Assembly: GCF_004366795.1 (NCBI RefSeq)
Contig: NZ_SORF01000009.1
Span: 62,001-126,000, forward strand
Length of the DNA: 64,000 nucleotides
Source: Alicyclobacillus sacchari
GTDB lineage: Bacteria > Bacillota > Bacilli > Alicyclobacillales > Alicyclobacillaceae
Direction: 5' to 3'
The notes beneath the pieces were generated by a model. It saw only the letters and a list, made by a program, of their open reading frames with translations. It searched no databases and had not been told where the DNA came from. The translations under genes and the position numbers were made by a program. This document shows, piece after piece, positions 40,505 through 47,336 of the stretch. Every line of letters starts with the position of its first letter. The first letter of the stretch is position 1.

Positions 40505-40542
40505 GATGCTCATGCAGTAAGGCCAGAGGAATGAGAGTGGAT

Positions 40543-40848
40543 ATGTTTATTGTGCATTCAACCATCGTCGTGCCGTTGGATAAGGTGAGCGAGGTCATTT
40601 CAATCTACCGCCAACGTTCGGGGCGTGTAGATACGTGGCCTGGTTTTCTATCGTTTCAATTGCTGCAAAATGAACATCGACCGGAAGAGTTGACCGTGCA
40701 ACTGACCTGGCAAGACAAAGACTCGTATTTGGCTTGGGCGCGGAGCGAGGATTTTCGGCGTGTACACGAATTGGAGAAACACTATCCGGACGCGGACCTG
40801 CGCTTGGTCCGACCGACAGTTCGCAAGTATCAGGTGGTAGCGGAATGA
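40543..40848 (+). CDS. Antibiotic biosynthesis monooxygenase (ABM) domain protein
   Basis: A ~101-residue single-domain ABM/dimeric alpha-beta barrel protein. FIVHSTIVVPLDKVSEVISI, the central TWPGFLSFQLLQN and LTWQDKDSYLAWARSEDFR are the usual strands and helix of this family. Members include small quinol monooxygenases and IsdG/HmoA-type haem oxygenases, and which function applies here is not clear. GAGGA at 40526 fits a GTG at 40537 slightly better than ATG 40543; ATG 40531 is too close. It overlaps the next gene by four bases (ATGA). Confidence 0.78.
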   Translation: MFIVHSTIVVPLDKVSEVISIYRQRSGRVDTWPGFLSFQLLQNEHRPEELTVQLTWQDKDSYLAWARSEDFRRVHELEKHYPDADLRLVRPTVRKYQVVAE

Positions 40849-41201
40849 TTGAACAGATTTGTGCAAAATGGGTAGATGACGTTGTGGCAGAATTGTATCG
40901 GGAACACCCCGAGTGGTATGAGCAATACGGTGAAGTGGGCCGGGAAAAATGTCGAGAAGACAATATTCACCATGTGCGGCATTTGGAGACCGCGTTTCAA
41001 CTCGGAAACATCTCCATATTCACGGACTATGCTGTTTGGTTAAACAGAATCTTGGTAGCCCATGGTATGACAGTGCAACATTTATTGGACAACCTGTGTA
41101 GAATGGCCAAAACTGTTGAGAAGAGAACAGAGTTGACGCCGGAGAGGCGGGTCTTTTTCGCTGCAGCGTTAGCGGCCGCTTTGGATAGGTTGCAATCGTA
41201 A
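40845..41201 (+). CDS. Free-standing helical sensor-like domain protein
   Basis: A 118-residue all-helical protein. ELYREHPEWYEQYGEVGREKC followed by DNIHHVRHLETAF and IFTDYAVWLNRILVAHGM resembles the helical N-terminal domain found before B12-binding and other sensor domains (the pattern Y-G-x-GRxKCxED-H-x-L-FxDYxxW). Here it stands alone. The likeness is from memory of the family pattern and was not checked by a search. The ATG overlaps the ABM stop, and the large CheB-CheR kinase begins 29 bases downstream, so all three are probably co-transcribed. A free-standing B12-binding protein is encoded on the other side of the kinase. Confidence 0.55.
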   Translation: MIEQICAKWVDDVVAELYREHPEWYEQYGEVGREKCREDNIHHVRHLETAFQLGNISIFTDYAVWLNRILVAHGMTVQHLLDNLCRMAKTVEKRTELTPERRVFFAAALAAALDRLQS

Positions 41202-41230
41202 GGCCGTGTAGCCGAGAAGGGGTGAGACGC

Positions 41231-44200
41231 ATGACTGCATCCGAACTGCGACCGTCCTATATCGTGGGCATCGGTGCGTCCGCCGGAGGGCTGGAAGCGC
41301 TCACGGCCCTGTTCGAACATCTTGCATCGAATACAGGTATGGCATTTGTCGTCATCCAACACCTATCGCCGAACTATCGAAGTTTTATGGCCGAGTTGCT
41401 TGGTGCTCATACGTCGATGCGGGTTGTCCAAGCCGAACATGACATGCTCATTGAGCCGAACGTGGTGTACTTAAACCCACCGCGCAAAAATCTTTTTGTC
41501 GAGAACGGTCGCTTGATTGTTCACGACTACACGGCGGTCAAGGGAGAATTGCACCTTCCTATCGACAGTTGCTTTCACTCGCTTGGGAAGGATGTAGGGG
41601 AGCGCGCAGTTGGCATCGTTCTCTCCGGCACAGGTAGCGACGGATCACGCGGAATTATCACCATGAAGCGCAACGGTGGCAAGGTCTTTGTTCAGGACGA
41701 GTCCGCGAAATTTGATGGGATGCCGCGCAGTGCGCTCGCGACTGGCGTCGTCGATGCGGTGCTGCCGCCCGACCAGATGGCCGCTCGACTACATAGTATG
41801 GCTCGCGGCGAGTGGCCAGCTGGGTCAACATCTCCAAGTGATATTCCAGCAGTCGAGGATAGTGACGAAGAAGTTGATACGCAAAAGTATCAGCGCTTGC
41901 TCGAACTGCTCTTTGAAAATACAGGTATCGATTATCAGGTGTACAAGCGCGATGGTGTTATTCGGCGATTGAAGCGTCGAATGGGCATTGAAAACATCCC
42001 GGATATTGAGCAATATCTTGATTTATTGCAGACACATCCGGAGTCGGTACAGGAATTGCATAAGGATTTGTTGATTGGTGTGACCAGTTTTTTTCGCGAT
42101 CCGAAAGCCTTTCAGATTGTGTACGAGCAGGTGTTGCCACAAATATTTGCAAATCGTGCCCGCGAGCGTGAAGTGCGCGTGTGGGTTGCGGGCTGTTCGA
42201 CCGGCGAAGAAGCGTATTCCATTGCCATGTTAATGCAAGAGTATATGGTGTCAACCGGCATGAAGTATAACGTGAAGATCTTTGCGACCGATTTGGACAG
42301 GGAATCGATCGCGTTTGCCGGGAACGGTATCTATCCTGCTGAAATCGAAAAGACCGTGAATCGGACGCGGCTGCAAACGTTCTTTACGCGCGTCGACGCT
42401 GGTTATCAGGTCAAGCCTGAGATTCGAAAAATGATTATCTTTGCGCCGCATAACATTACGAAGGATCCGCCGTTTATCAATACGGATTTGATCACGTGCC
42501 GCAATATGTTGATCTATTTGCAACCAGATGTGCAGCATCGAATTTTGTCGCTATTTCATTTTGCGTTGCATTCGCACGGGTTCTTGTTTCTTGGACCCAG
42601 CGAAAGTATAGGCCGACTCGCGAACCTGTTCGTACCTATCAATACGAAGTGGAATATTTTTCAGCATGCAGACGCCAGCGGTGCTCTCGCGCTGTATCAG
42701 CAAGCATCGTTGCTTCCTGTTGGTGCCCAAGCGGTAAAGTCCAGCGTCGCGAGACCACAGCAGGCGTATTTTGCAACAAGGCAAACACACATAGGAGGAT
42801 CATCGGATACGGACGAGTTGTATCGCATCTTCGTCGAGGAACACATGCCTGCTTGTGTCGTGATCGACGACAAACAGGACGTCGTGTCGTTGCACGGGGA
42901 TGTCAACAAGTATTTGGCACTTGCCAGCGGTAAACCGAGCAACAATGTACACAAGATGTTCGATTCGTCGATTTCGGTTGCCATTGTTACGGCAATGAGC
43001 AAAATCCGAAAGGGAAGTCTAGAGGTTGTTTACGATCACGTCCAGACCAAAGGCGCGGACCATGTGCGCGTCAGCTTGGTCATTCGTCCGCTGTCGCATG
43101 TTGTGGAGCGGTTTCGCAATTATGTCTTGGTTCTATTCAAAGACGCGGAGCGAACACCGCAGTTTGCATCCACGTACGGAGATATGGTGACGAGTGTCAA
43201 TCAGCACGTGATCGAGTTGGAAAGAGAACTGCAGATGTATCAAGAAAAGCTGCAGGTGACGGTGGAAGAACTGGAGACCTCCAACGAGGAGTTGCAGGCG
43301 ACCAATGAGGAGATCGTCGCAGCGAACGAGGAACTCCAGAGTACGAATGAGGAACTGCATTCGGTCAACGAAGAACTGTTGACCATCAATGCGGAATATC
43401 AGCTGAATATCCAGCAGCTGACCGAGTTGAATAACGATATGGACAACTTTCTTGCGAGTACGCAAATTGGCACGTTGTTTTTGGATCGCGAGATGCGGGT
43501 CAGGCGGTTCACACCGGCGATTACAAAAGAAATCAACCTGCTTGAGGTCGACATCGGCCGGCCAATCTCGCATATCTCTCATCATCTCAAGTACGATGAG
43601 ATGGTTCAGGATGCCGAGAAGGTGCTTGCCACCAGCGTGCCGATTGAGCGGGAGATTGAGAGTAAAACGGGGCATTGGTACAGTGTGCGGATTTTGCCGT
43701 ACCGCACCGCGGAGCAGCCCATTAAGGGTACGGTGCTCACGTTTGTCGATATCACCAGAATGAAGCAGATGAATGAAGAACTGCGCAAGTTGTCATACGC
43801 AATTGAACAAAGTCCGAGCATCGTCGTGATTACAGATCCATCCGGAGCTATCGAGTATGTGAATCCGAAGTTCTGCGAGTGCACGGGTTTTGCACAGGAC
43901 GAAATGGTCGGCAGGGACATCGCGTCATTGCATGTGTGGGGGGAAGACGAGGCGAGCTACGCTTCCGTATGGCGTTCTGTGACGGCTGGGGGACGTTGGA
44001 CGGGCGAATTGCCAAGTATCCGCAAAGACGGGACGACGTATTGGGAATCATTGTCGCTTGTTCCGATTTTGAATGAGCAGGGTGATACAATCCACTACTT
44101 GAAAGTCGCGGAGGATATTACGGAGATCAAGCATACGGAAGAACTGCTCCGCAAATCGGAAATGCTTTCGGCGGTGGGTGAATTGGCAGCAGGCATTGCG

Positions 44201-44830
44201 CATGAAATCCGCAATCCTCTCACGGCATTGAAAGGATTTACGAAACTTATTCGCACCGGATCGCACAGTGAGGCGTATCTGGAGATCATGCACCAGGAGT
44301 TAGAGCGGATTGAGTCGATTATCAACGAGTTACTCGTCCTGTCTAAGCCACAGGCGGTACATTTCAGGCCGGCCAACTTAGTTGCGGTGATGCGCGACGT
44401 CGTGATGCTATTAGAGACACAGGCGTTGCTCAATCAGGTCGAAATTGTGTTTGAAAGCGCGACGGAAGAGTTGATCATCGACTGTGTTGAAAACCAGTTA
44501 AAGCAGGTCTTTATCAATCTTGTGAAGAACGCGATTGAGGCGATGCCAAACGGGGGGACCGTGTCGGTGCATTTGACCTTGAGCGGCGACGAAGAAGTGC
44601 TTCTGACGGTGCAGGATCAAGGGGTTGGTATCCCTGAGGAGAAATTGGCGCGACTTGGTGAGCCTTTCTACACGACAAAAGATAAAGGGACCGGCCTCGG
44701 GCTTATGGTGAGTTTTAAAATCGTTGAGCAACACGGCGGTGCAATTCGTTATCGCAGCACACCGGGGCAAGGCACGACGGCCGAGATTCACCTGCCACTG
44801 CGGAAATCGCCGATGACGGACGCCACGTAG
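41231..44830 (+). CDS. CheB-CheR-coiled coil-PAS-PAS-histidine kinase fusion
   Basis: A 1199-residue soluble signalling protein. Residues ~8-190 are a CheB methylesterase with S17 (GASAGG), H44 (IQHLSP) and D137 (GTGSDG). Residues ~220-480 are a CheR methyltransferase ([10 protein letters not shown] at 321, CRNMLIYL at 423). A heptad-rich coiled coil ([17 protein letters not shown] and similar, ~658-740) leads to two PAS domains (~740-850 and ~855-965). HisKA follows with H991 in [12 protein letters not shown], then HATPase_c with [17 protein letters not shown] and GTGLGL. There is no receiver domain and no response regulator nearby. It has no membrane helix. The ATG at 41231 follows AAGGGGTGA. 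Such CheB/R-PAS kinases are known, but the signal is unknown. Confidence 0.95.
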
Positions 44831-44851
44831 ACCTGCGTTCGTCATCGGCGA
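44807..44851. terminator. 17-bp hairpin across the kinase stop codon
   Basis: Arms 44807-44823 and 44835-44851 pair over 17 bases with a single G-U. The loop holds the kinase stop codon (44828-44830). There is no T-run on either strand, so it may act as an RNA-stabilising or bidirectional transcription-limiting structure between convergent genes, not as a classical terminator. Confidence 0.6.
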
Positions 44852-44863
44852 TAGTGATTCCAG

Positions 44864-45424
44864 TCACAGGGCGGCTTGAGCGTGTTCGTGAATCAGAGCG
44901 CGCAGGCTATCCAGTTCTTTCATAATCAGTTCAGCATATACACCTTTTCCTATTTCAATGATATCGCCTTGTAACATGCCCAGCAGTTCTTCGACCGTAC
45001 GGATGGACTGATCCACATGCTGCCAGAGGTCATCTCTCAATTCTGCGGGCTTCTGCACGGATTCTCCGCAGACCAAGCGCTGTTCCAGTCGAGCTACAGA
45101 ATGTAAGACCTCATCCAAGTCGGATTGTCGCGGCACACAGGCTATGAATCCAACCGTATTGCCATCTTCGGATGGCCGCCAGCGGTGATAAACGTCGAAC
45201 AACCCAATGCCTTCCGGCATACAAAAGTTGAGTTCGACTTTGATTCCCGACATTGTTGCGCATAAAAAGCGGGACAATTTTGCACGGCTACCGTGATCGA
45301 TCACGTCAAGCAAGTTTGCAACTTCCTTGCCAAAGGTCGCCTTTGCTGTTTCGGACATGCGAACCACATCGTAATTTTCAAGGATGATGAATCCAGGCAC
45401 AGGTAGATGGTCTAGGGCGTGCAT
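44864..45424 (-). CDS. PAS-like domain protein with helical C terminus
   Basis: A 186-residue soluble protein. The N-terminal ~100 residues (VPGFIILENYDVVRMSETAK ... LLDVIDHGSRAKLSRFL ... VYHRWRPSEDGNTVGFIACV) follow a PAS-like strand and helix order. The rest is helical and charged (LDEVLHSVARLEQRL ... LWQHVDQSIRTVEELL ... AELIMKELDSLRALIHEH) and probably dimerises. It starts 15 bases after the B12-binding gene in the same direction, so the two form an operon. No catalytic domain is seen. A sensor or adaptor role is inferred. Confidence 0.6.
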   Translation of the reverse strand: MHALDHLPVPGFIILENYDVVRMSETAKATFGKEVANLLDVIDHGSRAKLSRFLCATMSGIKVELNFCMPEGIGLFDVYHRWRPSEDGNTVGFIACVPRQSDLDEVLHSVARLEQRLVCGESVQKPAELRDDLWQHVDQSIRTVEELLGMLQGDIIEIGKGVYAELIMKELDSLRALIHEHAQAAL

Positions 45425-45439
45425 TTCGTGTTCTGACTC

Positions 45440-46087
45440 CTATTGTGCGCGGGCTTTGGATTTTTGGCGTAGCGCCAGCCATTCTTGCAATTGTAAAATG
45501 TCATGGATGATCAAGGCGTGATCGCCCACGTAAGGATGCAGGTCGTACACTTGCGCCAATCTGCCGCCAATCAAGAGCGTCGGATGGTGTGCAAGGGAAC
45601 CAAGCTCCTGAACATACGTCTTCAGCTTCGGCAGATGATAGACTATAGATACAGACATGCCAATGATATCCGGATGCCAGCGCAATGCTGCAAGCAAGGC
45701 GTATTCGAGAGGAAGGTCTTTGCCGTAAAGGCGCGTCTCAAATCCGAACTCCGCAAAGCATGATGCTACCATTTTGATACCGAGATCGTGCTGTTCACCT
45801 TCGATACAAAATAGCATGGCCTTGCCTTGTGTCGGTTGCACGGTTCTGGTCGCCTCGCACCGTTTGAGCAGTGCGTCGCAAACAGACGAGGCCAAGTGCT
45901 CATCGGCAACAGAAATCAAATTGGCCTCCCAAAGTTCACCAATGTGGCGCATCGCTTTGCACAGCAAGACATCGTAGATGTAGGCACTGTTTGCACCGCC
46001 CTGTACGTACGTTTGAATGACTTCCCATGCGGCCGCCTCATCGCCTTCCAGCAGAGGCTTTACCAGTTTGAGTGCATCAAATACCAT
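45440..46087 (-). CDS. Free-standing B12-binding protein with CarH-type Wx9EH motif
   Basis: A 215-residue protein with a helical bundle (1-85) and a Rossmann-like cobalamin-binding domain (88-205). The helical part has W53 then E63-H64 with exactly nine residues between (WEANLISVADEHLAS), the signature of CarH/LitR-type adenosylcobalamin photoreceptors. The B12 domain has EGEQHDLG with H100 as the expected lower axial ligand, then SVSIVYHLPK and IGGR. The MerR DNA-binding domain of CarH is absent. The ATG at 46087 has AAGGAG six bases upstream. Being free-standing, it probably acts by protein contact, for example on the PAS-like protein or the nearby kinase. Confidence 0.85.
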   Translation of the reverse strand: MVFDALKLVKPLLEGDEAAAWEVIQTYVQGGANSAYIYDVLLCKAMRHIGELWEANLISVADEHLASSVCDALLKRCEATRTVQPTQGKAMLFCIEGEQHDLGIKMVASCFAEFGFETRLYGKDLPLEYALLAALRWHPDIIGMSVSIVYHLPKLKTYVQELGSLAHHPTLLIGGRLAQVYDLHPYVGDHALIIHDILQLQEWLALRQKSKARAQ

Positions 46088-47260: not shown

Positions 47261-47336
47261 TGGTCGGAATGACAGGACTCGAACCTGCGACCTCACGGTC
47301 CCGAACCGTGCGCTCTACCACCTGAGCTACATTCCG
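47261..47336 (-). tRNA. tRNA-Pro (anticodon CGG)
   Basis: On the minus strand a full cloverleaf is seen: acceptor CGGAATG/CATTCCG, a D arm with AGGTGGTAGA, anticodon stem ACGG/CCGT with loop TTCGGGA (anticodon CGG, reading CCG), a variable loop, T arm GCAGG-TTCGAGT-CCTGT and discriminator A. The 3' CCA is encoded (47261-47263), so RNase Z would not be strictly needed for it. Confidence 0.95.

Follow-up and report, generated by a model that had tools for sequence, protein, structure and literature searches.

The photocobilins SasPcob and AbDPcob combine a CarH-type B12 module with a globin that holds biliverdin. As described in PMC10979010, His108 of SasPcob is the histidine ligand of cobalt, Asp270 and Trp296 hold biliverdin, where Trp296 contacts ring D, and control via protein contact is reported. 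According to a second source (PMC10151467), the BBAG-2-type clusters, in which a bilin globin stands alone, are found in genomes with a heme oxygenase.

The present analysis concerns a five-gene locus at positions 40531-46087 of a 64-kb stretch of DNA (the window), which lies within contig 9 of the 2.9 Mb, 66-contig genome of Alicyclobacillus sacchari. The plus strand carries the genes of an ABM protein, a small helical protein and a CheB-CheR-PAS histidine kinase, and the minus strand carries, convergent with them, the genes of a PAS-like protein and a B12-binding protein. All five reading frames are open, in agreement with the gene set given in a first-pass annotation made from the sequence alone, and the ABM and helical-protein genes share an ATGA stop/start overlap. 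We consider it rather probable that the locus encodes a split two-chromophore photosensor, in which the PAS protein would act as a relay docking on the kinase. Sequence analysis and modelling established what the genes encode, how the proteins fold, which key residues they carry, that their linkage is conserved, and that a STAS domain and a tail plus kinase exclude each other. Neither the bilin-type globin nor its heme-monooxygenase-like partner was recognized in the first-pass annotation, and the swappable outputs were also overlooked.

The B12-binding protein, the globin and the pigment supply

The B12-binding protein (45440..46087, minus strand) consists of a helical bundle and a Rossmann domain, and the Pfam scan matched PF02607 and PF02310 alone, with no N-terminal DNA-binding helix-turn-helix (HTH). 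The CarH/photocobilin motif W53-x9-E63-H64 lies at 45896..45931 and E98-x-H100 at 45788..45796, both on the minus strand, where His100 is aligned to SasPcob His108. The former motif and E98-x-H100-x2-G103 are present as first noted, and the W-x-EH and E/DxH motifs expected of a photocobilin B12 module are found. The earlier suggestion of a CarH-type B12 module lacking a DNA-binding domain is supported by the Pfam content together with the light-sensing residues.

The residues W53, E63, H64 and H100 are jointly kept in all 46 proteins encoded apart from the globin (split proteins), all 15 fused proteins and all eight MerR-type proteins, in each of which the MerR domain was confirmed, and in none of the 12 corrinoid carriers (the 12 best-scoring of 91 matching genomes) or six MetH proteins. 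The complete published light signature (GxxW, EH, GxxH and GxxxP), which the window protein possesses, is found in 25 of the 46 split, 2 of the 15 fused and 1 of the 8 MerR-type proteins, and in none of the 18 carriers and MetH proteins. In the tree of the B12 proteins, the carriers and MetH proteins form one side of a branch supported at 100/100, where no split protein is found; the MerR-type proteins form a separate group, and the branch with every split protein is supported at 94/75. The short L014 was dropped from this tree, two fused rows are identical, several branches are long, and the placement of the carrier/MetH branch is unsure. A phylogeny that unites the B12 protein with corrinoid carriers had been named beforehand as refuting; the protein stands apart from both carriers and MetH. 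Its PDB matches were, in order, two SasPcob entries (E = 1.9e-16), 1y80 (5.1e-13), AbPcob, CtMerR and CarH. By its sequence, the B12 protein belongs to the photosensor modules of the CarH type, and the corresponding photochemistry is predicted for it.

The helical protein is encoded at 40845..41201 (plus strand) and gave no match in the Pfam scan. An AlphaFold2 model, which was built with six same-genus orthologues, has a mean predicted local distance difference test (pLDDT) value of 95.3 and a predicted TM-score of 0.88. The best 50 of 362 Foldseek matches of this model (E up to 10) comprised 45 phycobiliprotein or phycobilisome titles, four smURFP and one 'Bacterial fluorescent protein', and the probability was 1.00, the TM-score up to 0.79 and the E-value 0.016-0.08 among the matches listed. 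A PDB search using the single sequence gave no significant match, and a six-sequence profile ranked a chance match to a His-tag at the top. The photocobilins ranked at the top only when a 21-sequence profile of stand-alone globins was compared with 177,635 PDB sequences; SasPcob (two entries), AbPcob and phycocyanin alpha were then the leading matches, with E-values of 0.006, 0.0062, 0.011 and 0.034 in this order. The protein had been likened in the first-pass annotation to the N-terminal half of B12 sensors, which is wrong; the assignment as a B12 half-domain was rejected because the model matches phycobiliproteins and the profile matches the globin domains of photocobilins.

The Cys36-x-x-Asp39 segment (40950..40961, plus strand) corresponds to the Cys/Asp chromophore site of phycobiliproteins, and in the profile alignment its Cys and Asp are aligned to those of KCARD in phycocyanin. 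Asp39 is also aligned to SasPcob Asp270, and Trp65 (41037..41039, plus strand) to SasPcob Trp296, where a chain numbering offset of 6 was derived from Trp61 and His108. Both the Asp and the Trp of the SasPcob-type biliverdin pocket are, hence, present in the window globin. In a set of named loci, consisting of the best 80 of 130 relatives, mostly from Bacillaceae with some from Paenibacillus, each of these two residues is kept in 79 of the 80 globins; the Cys is found in 77 of the 80, a biased count since the scan patterns favoured the Cys motif. In a survey of the class, the Cys occurs in 18 of 29 rows, and one of the other 11 (L083) is a fragment without that part. The CXRD chromophore motif of light-harvesting phycobiliproteins is matched in the Cys/Asp spacing, but Glu replaces Arg (CRED); the RGMC motif of BBAG-2 is absent from the window globin, which has Cys-x-x-Asp instead. 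Taken from the alignments and the model, the lone helical protein is a stand-alone globin of the bilin-binding type (phycobiliprotein/photoglobin fold), which would be expected to bind a bilin.

The ABM gene (40531..40848, plus strand) encodes an IsdG/HmuQ-type heme-monooxygenase-like protein (PF03992, E = 3.9e-13), and many relatives begin at the Met equivalent to position 40543. The top NCBIfam match is HmuQ at 45 bits, which is under the cut-off of 130, and the family profile matches heme-degrading monooxygenases with a best E-value of 1.6e-9. IsdG-type heme oxygenases have an Asn/Trp/His set of residues. In the ABM family, the His is invariant and the Trp nearly so, and the Asn is changed to Ser, which leaves the set incomplete. 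The canonical heme oxygenase PF01126 gave no match in the window's genome and was matched in 1 of the 25 globin-bearing genomes searched; this single genome (G438, which contains locus L143) also has an ABM copy elsewhere. A cobalamin adenosyltransferase is encoded in the window's genome. Judged by its sequence, the ABM protein is a candidate bilin source. It may make bilin by altered chemistry or serve the bilin otherwise, and this is the weakest step of the proposal.

Two ABM fragments in different frames were observed in G008, a genome of the same genus (L262:5123-5403), and the surrounding 11 kb gave no match to the globin, the B12 protein, the PAS protein or the kinase. Genome-wide, G008 has no B12 match and no kinase match, the globin having been checked within the 11 kb fetched, and the fragments are possibly the remnant of a lost locus.

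The PAS partner, the kinase and the choice of output

The B12 protein has as its partner the PAS relay protein, encoded at 44864..45424 (minus strand). Its sequence gave no match in Pfam and no significant match in the PDB. In the AlphaFold2 model, no 10-residue block within residues 11-100 has a mean pLDDT under 89, and the mean over the whole model is 77.7, where the C-terminus is helical with lower confidence; Foldseek returned PAS, LOV and FixL folds with a best E-value of 1.9e-5. The C-terminal helical tail, residues 137-178 (44891..45016, minus strand), was recognized from a tail profile and its linkage to the kinase. Among 104 distinct B12-linked PAS proteins, 76 carry the STAS domain, a feature of the RsbR type of stressosome protein that is absent from the window protein, 17 carry the tail (the window included), and 11 have neither; the 17 of 104 is not a frequency, as seven kinase-type loci (L238-L244) were fetched after PAS genes without STAS had been seen, the kinase end being already in view for six.

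The two endings exclude each other. None of the 76 STAS-type proteins has the tail or an adjoining CheB-CheR kinase; in those loci that were taken with a 1.5 kb flank, a distant kinase would escape the count. All of the 17 tail-type proteins lack STAS and adjoin a CheB-CheR kinase; the tail profile was derived from six same-genus sequences, all among the 17, and the remaining 11 are independent of it. Four of the 11 proteins with neither ending (L023, L025, L145 and L246) bear kinase domains of their own, and at L245 a STAS-type PAS gene adjoins a kinase of 436 aa that does not match the CheB-CheR part. In a first count of 95 rows, with duplicates kept, a neighbour distance of 300 and a tail cut-off of 1e-2, the result was 71/16/7 plus one weak tail match, which is the kinase fusion L145 with no separate kinase. 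The second count (93 distinct, distance 600, cut-off 1e-3) gave 68/17/8, and the final one (104 distinct, short loci and a kinase-domain criterion added) gave 75/17/11 plus L245.

Within the tail, Leu147 and Glu157 are invariant in the 14 sequences aligned. Two further tail-bearing pairs (L256 and L257), which were picked irrespective of kinases, both adjoin a CheR-bearing kinase relative, and one of these out-of-sample pairs faces a full-length CheB-CheR-PAS kinase (51% identity). The gene order is convergent in the window and divergent in the Paenibacillus loci L165 and L169, which indicates that the linkage of tail and kinase is not merely an inherited layout. This linkage is the best evidence, at the level of sequence, for a partnership of the PAS relay with the kinase, on which the tail would dock.

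At L264:4596-5624, a 343-aa CheR protein faces a tail-bearing PAS gene; its final residues resemble the HisKA helix of the kinase, not significantly, and the protein may hint at which kinase part the tail meets. Near the B12-PAS pair, L264:8239-9261 holds an open reading frame (ORF) which by eye is like a spore photoproduct lyase.

The kinase extends from 41222 (GTG) or 41231 (ATG, 1199 aa) to 44830 on the plus strand, with the order CheB-CheR-coiled coil-PAS-PAS-HisKA-HATPase_c. Pfam matched CheB, CheR, PAS_10, PAS, HisKA and HATPase_c, the CheB, CheR, H-box and ATP-binding motifs are present, and the hydropathy profile gave no membrane-like stretch. The kinase is an orphan: the absence of a response regulator from the locus, which had been pointed out earlier, was confirmed by phmmer with three receiver domains as queries, which found no response-regulator-like ORF across the 64-kb window. 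In three genomes of the same genus, the B12 gene is adjoined by a regulator that by eye is of the OmpR type and by a kinase of the membrane type (L018:7607-9861, L020:8011-10343 and L021:6456-8821), and these are absent from the window. A CheB-like 111-aa ORF at L062:5158-5493 overlaps the end of the B12 gene in antisense, in a locus which also has ABM and globin, and is possibly a kinase remnant.

The STAS continuation of the PAS partner is usual in the Bacillaceae relatives. PF01740 was above the cut-off in three of five STAS-type proteins scanned, below it in one and unmatched in one, and the other STAS calls were made by a profile built from these five. SigB scored over the cut-off in 14 of 28 genomes; by type, it did so in 12 of 13 STAS-type genomes, none of 10 kinase-type genomes and none of 3 with a fused kinase or photocobilin. 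This pattern is in line with stressosome output where STAS is kept, and phylogeny alone could explain it. Three genomes (G430, G425 and G421) have one globin each together with both STAS-type and kinase-type B12-PAS pairs. At L108, L117, L118, L122, L126 and others, mostly from Fictibacillus, the PAS-STAS gene is followed by a further two PAS-like ORFs, and three PAS-like ORFs after the B12 gene were seen in 14 of the 80 loci.

Distribution, proposed mechanism and rival explanations

Within the genus, the B12 protein and the kinase occur in the same six of 15 genomes (the window's own counted), where the globin was also found, and neither occurs in the other nine. The five other genomes of the genus with a match to the B12 protein (G002, G003, G006, G009 and G014) each have the complete five-gene set in one place, which indicates that the association is not due to chance. 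In 78 of the 80 named loci, the globin gene is immediately preceded by ABM, with an ATGA, GTGA or TTGA overlap in 71 of the 78, and the B12 gene is present in 61, directly downstream in 55. The conserved neighbourhood called for by the first-pass annotation is, thus, borne out by the five-gene set in five relatives and by the ABM-globin-B12 linkage across Bacilli loci.

The 19 named-locus genomes with no B12 gene in the locus, each of which has one globin, were searched whole. A dedicated B12 gene adjoining a PAS gene is encoded elsewhere in 18 of them, and six have at least two split-type B12 genes; the exception, L163 (Bacillus sp. EB01), has generic B12 matches only, and its globin frame contains a stop. 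For two loci of the class survey, L066 (globin alone) and L073 (no B12), the genome likewise encodes a B12-PAS pair with the tail at another site, so that among genomes lacking a B12 gene in the globin locus such a pair is present in 20 of 21.

In the 23 stand-alone loci outside the genus that were retrieved from the class survey (L056-L075 and L080-L082), ABM was present in 21, B12 in 21 and the PAS partner in 16. The globin profile matched 57 of 398 genomes of the class; in 22 of the 57 the ORF is 357-391 aa long, and the nine of these 22 that were checked all hold a B12 domain. At the level of the phylum, 14 of 398 genomes match the profile, six of them outside the class, and the B12 domain was confirmed in five of these six. 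Fused B12-globin chains are known from a single family of Bacilli (f5) and from elsewhere in the phylum. At L076, L077, L078, L079 and L084, fused proteins of about 360 aa are each followed by a histidine kinase (histidine kinase-receiver-Hpt at L076), and an ABM gene lies upstream of the fused protein at L077. The record of L102 is titled Pseudomonas sp. ISL-84 and contains a Bacillaceae-type operon; the genome is likely mislabelled. In the window itself, a tRNA-Pro (cgg) gene lies beyond the locus at 47261-47336 (minus strand), between YihY-like and PcrA/UvrD-like genes, both named by eye.

In the proposed mechanism, the ABM enzyme or another heme degrader would supply a linear tetrapyrrole, which the globin would bind in its phycobiliprotein-like pocket. 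The globin would serve as the red/far-red-absorbing partner of the separate CarH-type protein, which would bind adenosylcobalamin (AdoCbl), a part that in photocobilins is taken by the globin domain of the fused chain. Light would break the Co-C bond of AdoCbl, and the B12 protein would alter its shape or oligomer state. The PAS partner would relay this change, its tail docking on the CheB-CheR-PAS kinase and altering autophosphorylation, and the phosphate would pass to a response regulator encoded elsewhere. We infer the chromophores, the bilin production, the light response with its photochemistry, the antenna role, the docking and the kinase control in this scheme. More tentatively, the globin could be a diffusible, phycobiliprotein-like bilin antenna for one or several B12-PAS photosensors per cell, extending the response from green to red/far-red, and the PAS relay could be a plug with a C-terminus that selects STAS/stressosome, a fused histidine kinase or the CheB-CheR kinase as output. 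The original idea of a light- or cobalamin-responsive module is retained in part: the CarH-type B12 module, the partner proteins and the conserved neighbourhood speak for it, and the reading of the helical protein as one half of such a B12 sensor had to be abandoned.

Several observations weigh against the split photosensor. The Foldseek E-value of the globin was never 0.001 or lower among the matches listed, despite the probability of 1.00, the top E-value of the profile search is just 0.006, and the Cys is absent from 10 of the 28 class-survey rows that cover that part. The third PDB match of the B12 protein, 1y80, is a plain predicted cobalamin-binding protein and outranks AbPcob and CarH. 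In ABM, Ser stands for Asn in 28 of 28 class-survey rows and 17 of 17 rows of a second alignment, which makes heme degradation uncertain; L136 and L143 (2 of the 80 loci) have no ABM beside the globin, and one such genome, G437, has neither an ABM match nor a canonical heme oxygenase. On the output side, the other out-of-sample tail pair has the 343-aa CheR protein (39% identity to the CheR part of the kinase), not a full kinase, and CheB-CheR kinase relatives with 44% and 38% identity occur in G018, where no globin was found, and in G052, which was outside the globin search. The absence of SigB from the 10 kinase-type genomes follows phylogeny, and seven more kinase-type genomes, several of them Bacillaceae, are outside that count, so that the SigB contrast is of little weight. 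Finally, B12-PAS pairs with no globin are found in G025 and G056. Compensation of a missing ABM by canonical heme oxygenase was considered and rejected, since G438 has both and G437 neither.

The locus might sense cobalamin and not light, where the B12 protein would report the AdoCbl supply and the globin would be a structural protein or a heme/porphyrin-related regulator with no bilin. The indirect assignment of the bilin, the ABM without Asn and the rarity of PF01126 among the globin-bearing genomes fit such a sensor; however, all 46 split relatives retain the Trp and the Glu-His with which light sensors contact the adenosyl group, and the pocket Asp and Trp are nearly invariant in the named globins, and we regard this explanation as unlikely. 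Separation of the tight ABM-globin and B12-PAS pairs in 19 of the 80 named loci, together with G025 and G056, could indicate two systems side by side, one of ABM and globin for tetrapyrrole binding or detoxification and the other of B12, PAS and kinase for light, joined by common regulation only. This is quite unlikely in our estimation, because all 20 tested genomes with an intact globin and no B12 in the locus encode the B12-PAS pair elsewhere, and the modules are fused in family f5 (B12 confirmed in 9 of 22 class ORFs) and in five cases outside the class. Since the pair is found elsewhere in 20 of 21 genomes and also occurs with no globin in two, the globin seems to need the B12 pair and not the reverse, which fits an accessory antenna.

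A role of the B12 protein as a corrinoid methyl carrier would be compatible with the common fold, the match to 1y80 and the NCBIfam scores (MtaC 39.0 and MtgC 36.5 bits vs CarH 39.8, all far under the cut-offs). It was rejected and is considered extremely improbable, because the 12 best-scoring carriers and six MetH proteins lie behind the 100/100 branch, and W53, E63 and H64 are absent from all 18.

If the split two-chromophore photosensor is correct, many non-photosynthetic Bacilli would have a genetically modular two-pigment photosensor, in which one exchangeable protein each would serve as pigment source, antenna, photoswitch, relay and output. A globin of the phycobiliprotein-like kind would then have a part in signalling outside cyanobacteria. 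The general stress response of Bacillaceae would gain a candidate input for red and green light, as would the orphan CheB-CheR-PAS kinase a candidate input of its own, and split parts would become available for optogenetics.

Comparison with known systems

In the literature searched, which was largely open-access, no description was found of the ABM-globin operon of Bacilli, the PAS relay, the alternation of STAS and kinase, or the CheB-CheR kinase as output. BBAG-2 and related Myxococcales clusters (PMC10151467) share with the window a bilin globin that stands alone and a B12-binding protein encoded apart from it, and the split arrangement itself therefore has a precedent. According to the same source, BBAG-2 has the RGMC motif, an adjoining FDBR and, in some clusters, a canonical heme oxygenase, whereas the window has Cys-x-x-Asp and an ABM-type enzyme. 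Unlike the BBAG-2 clusters, the Bacilli set adds a PAS partner with STAS or kinase outputs.

CarH and LitR have the same AdoCbl light-sensing residues as the window protein; however, the latter has no HTH, and the MerR-type proteins group apart in the tree. The STAS output of the Bacillaceae relatives is shared with YtvA (LOV-STAS), and this analogy suggests stressosome input; the window version has no STAS, and the Bacilli set is paired with B12 and globin. The photocobilins resemble the window in the CarH-type B12 module and the biliverdin-pocket globin, with the pocket Asp and Trp of SasPcob in common (PMC10979010). The two modules form one chain in the photocobilins, whereas the window encodes them in separate genes, with a Cys in the globin where SasPcob aligns Thr, and has, in addition, the heme-monooxygenase-like gene, the PAS relay and the CheB-CheR kinase.

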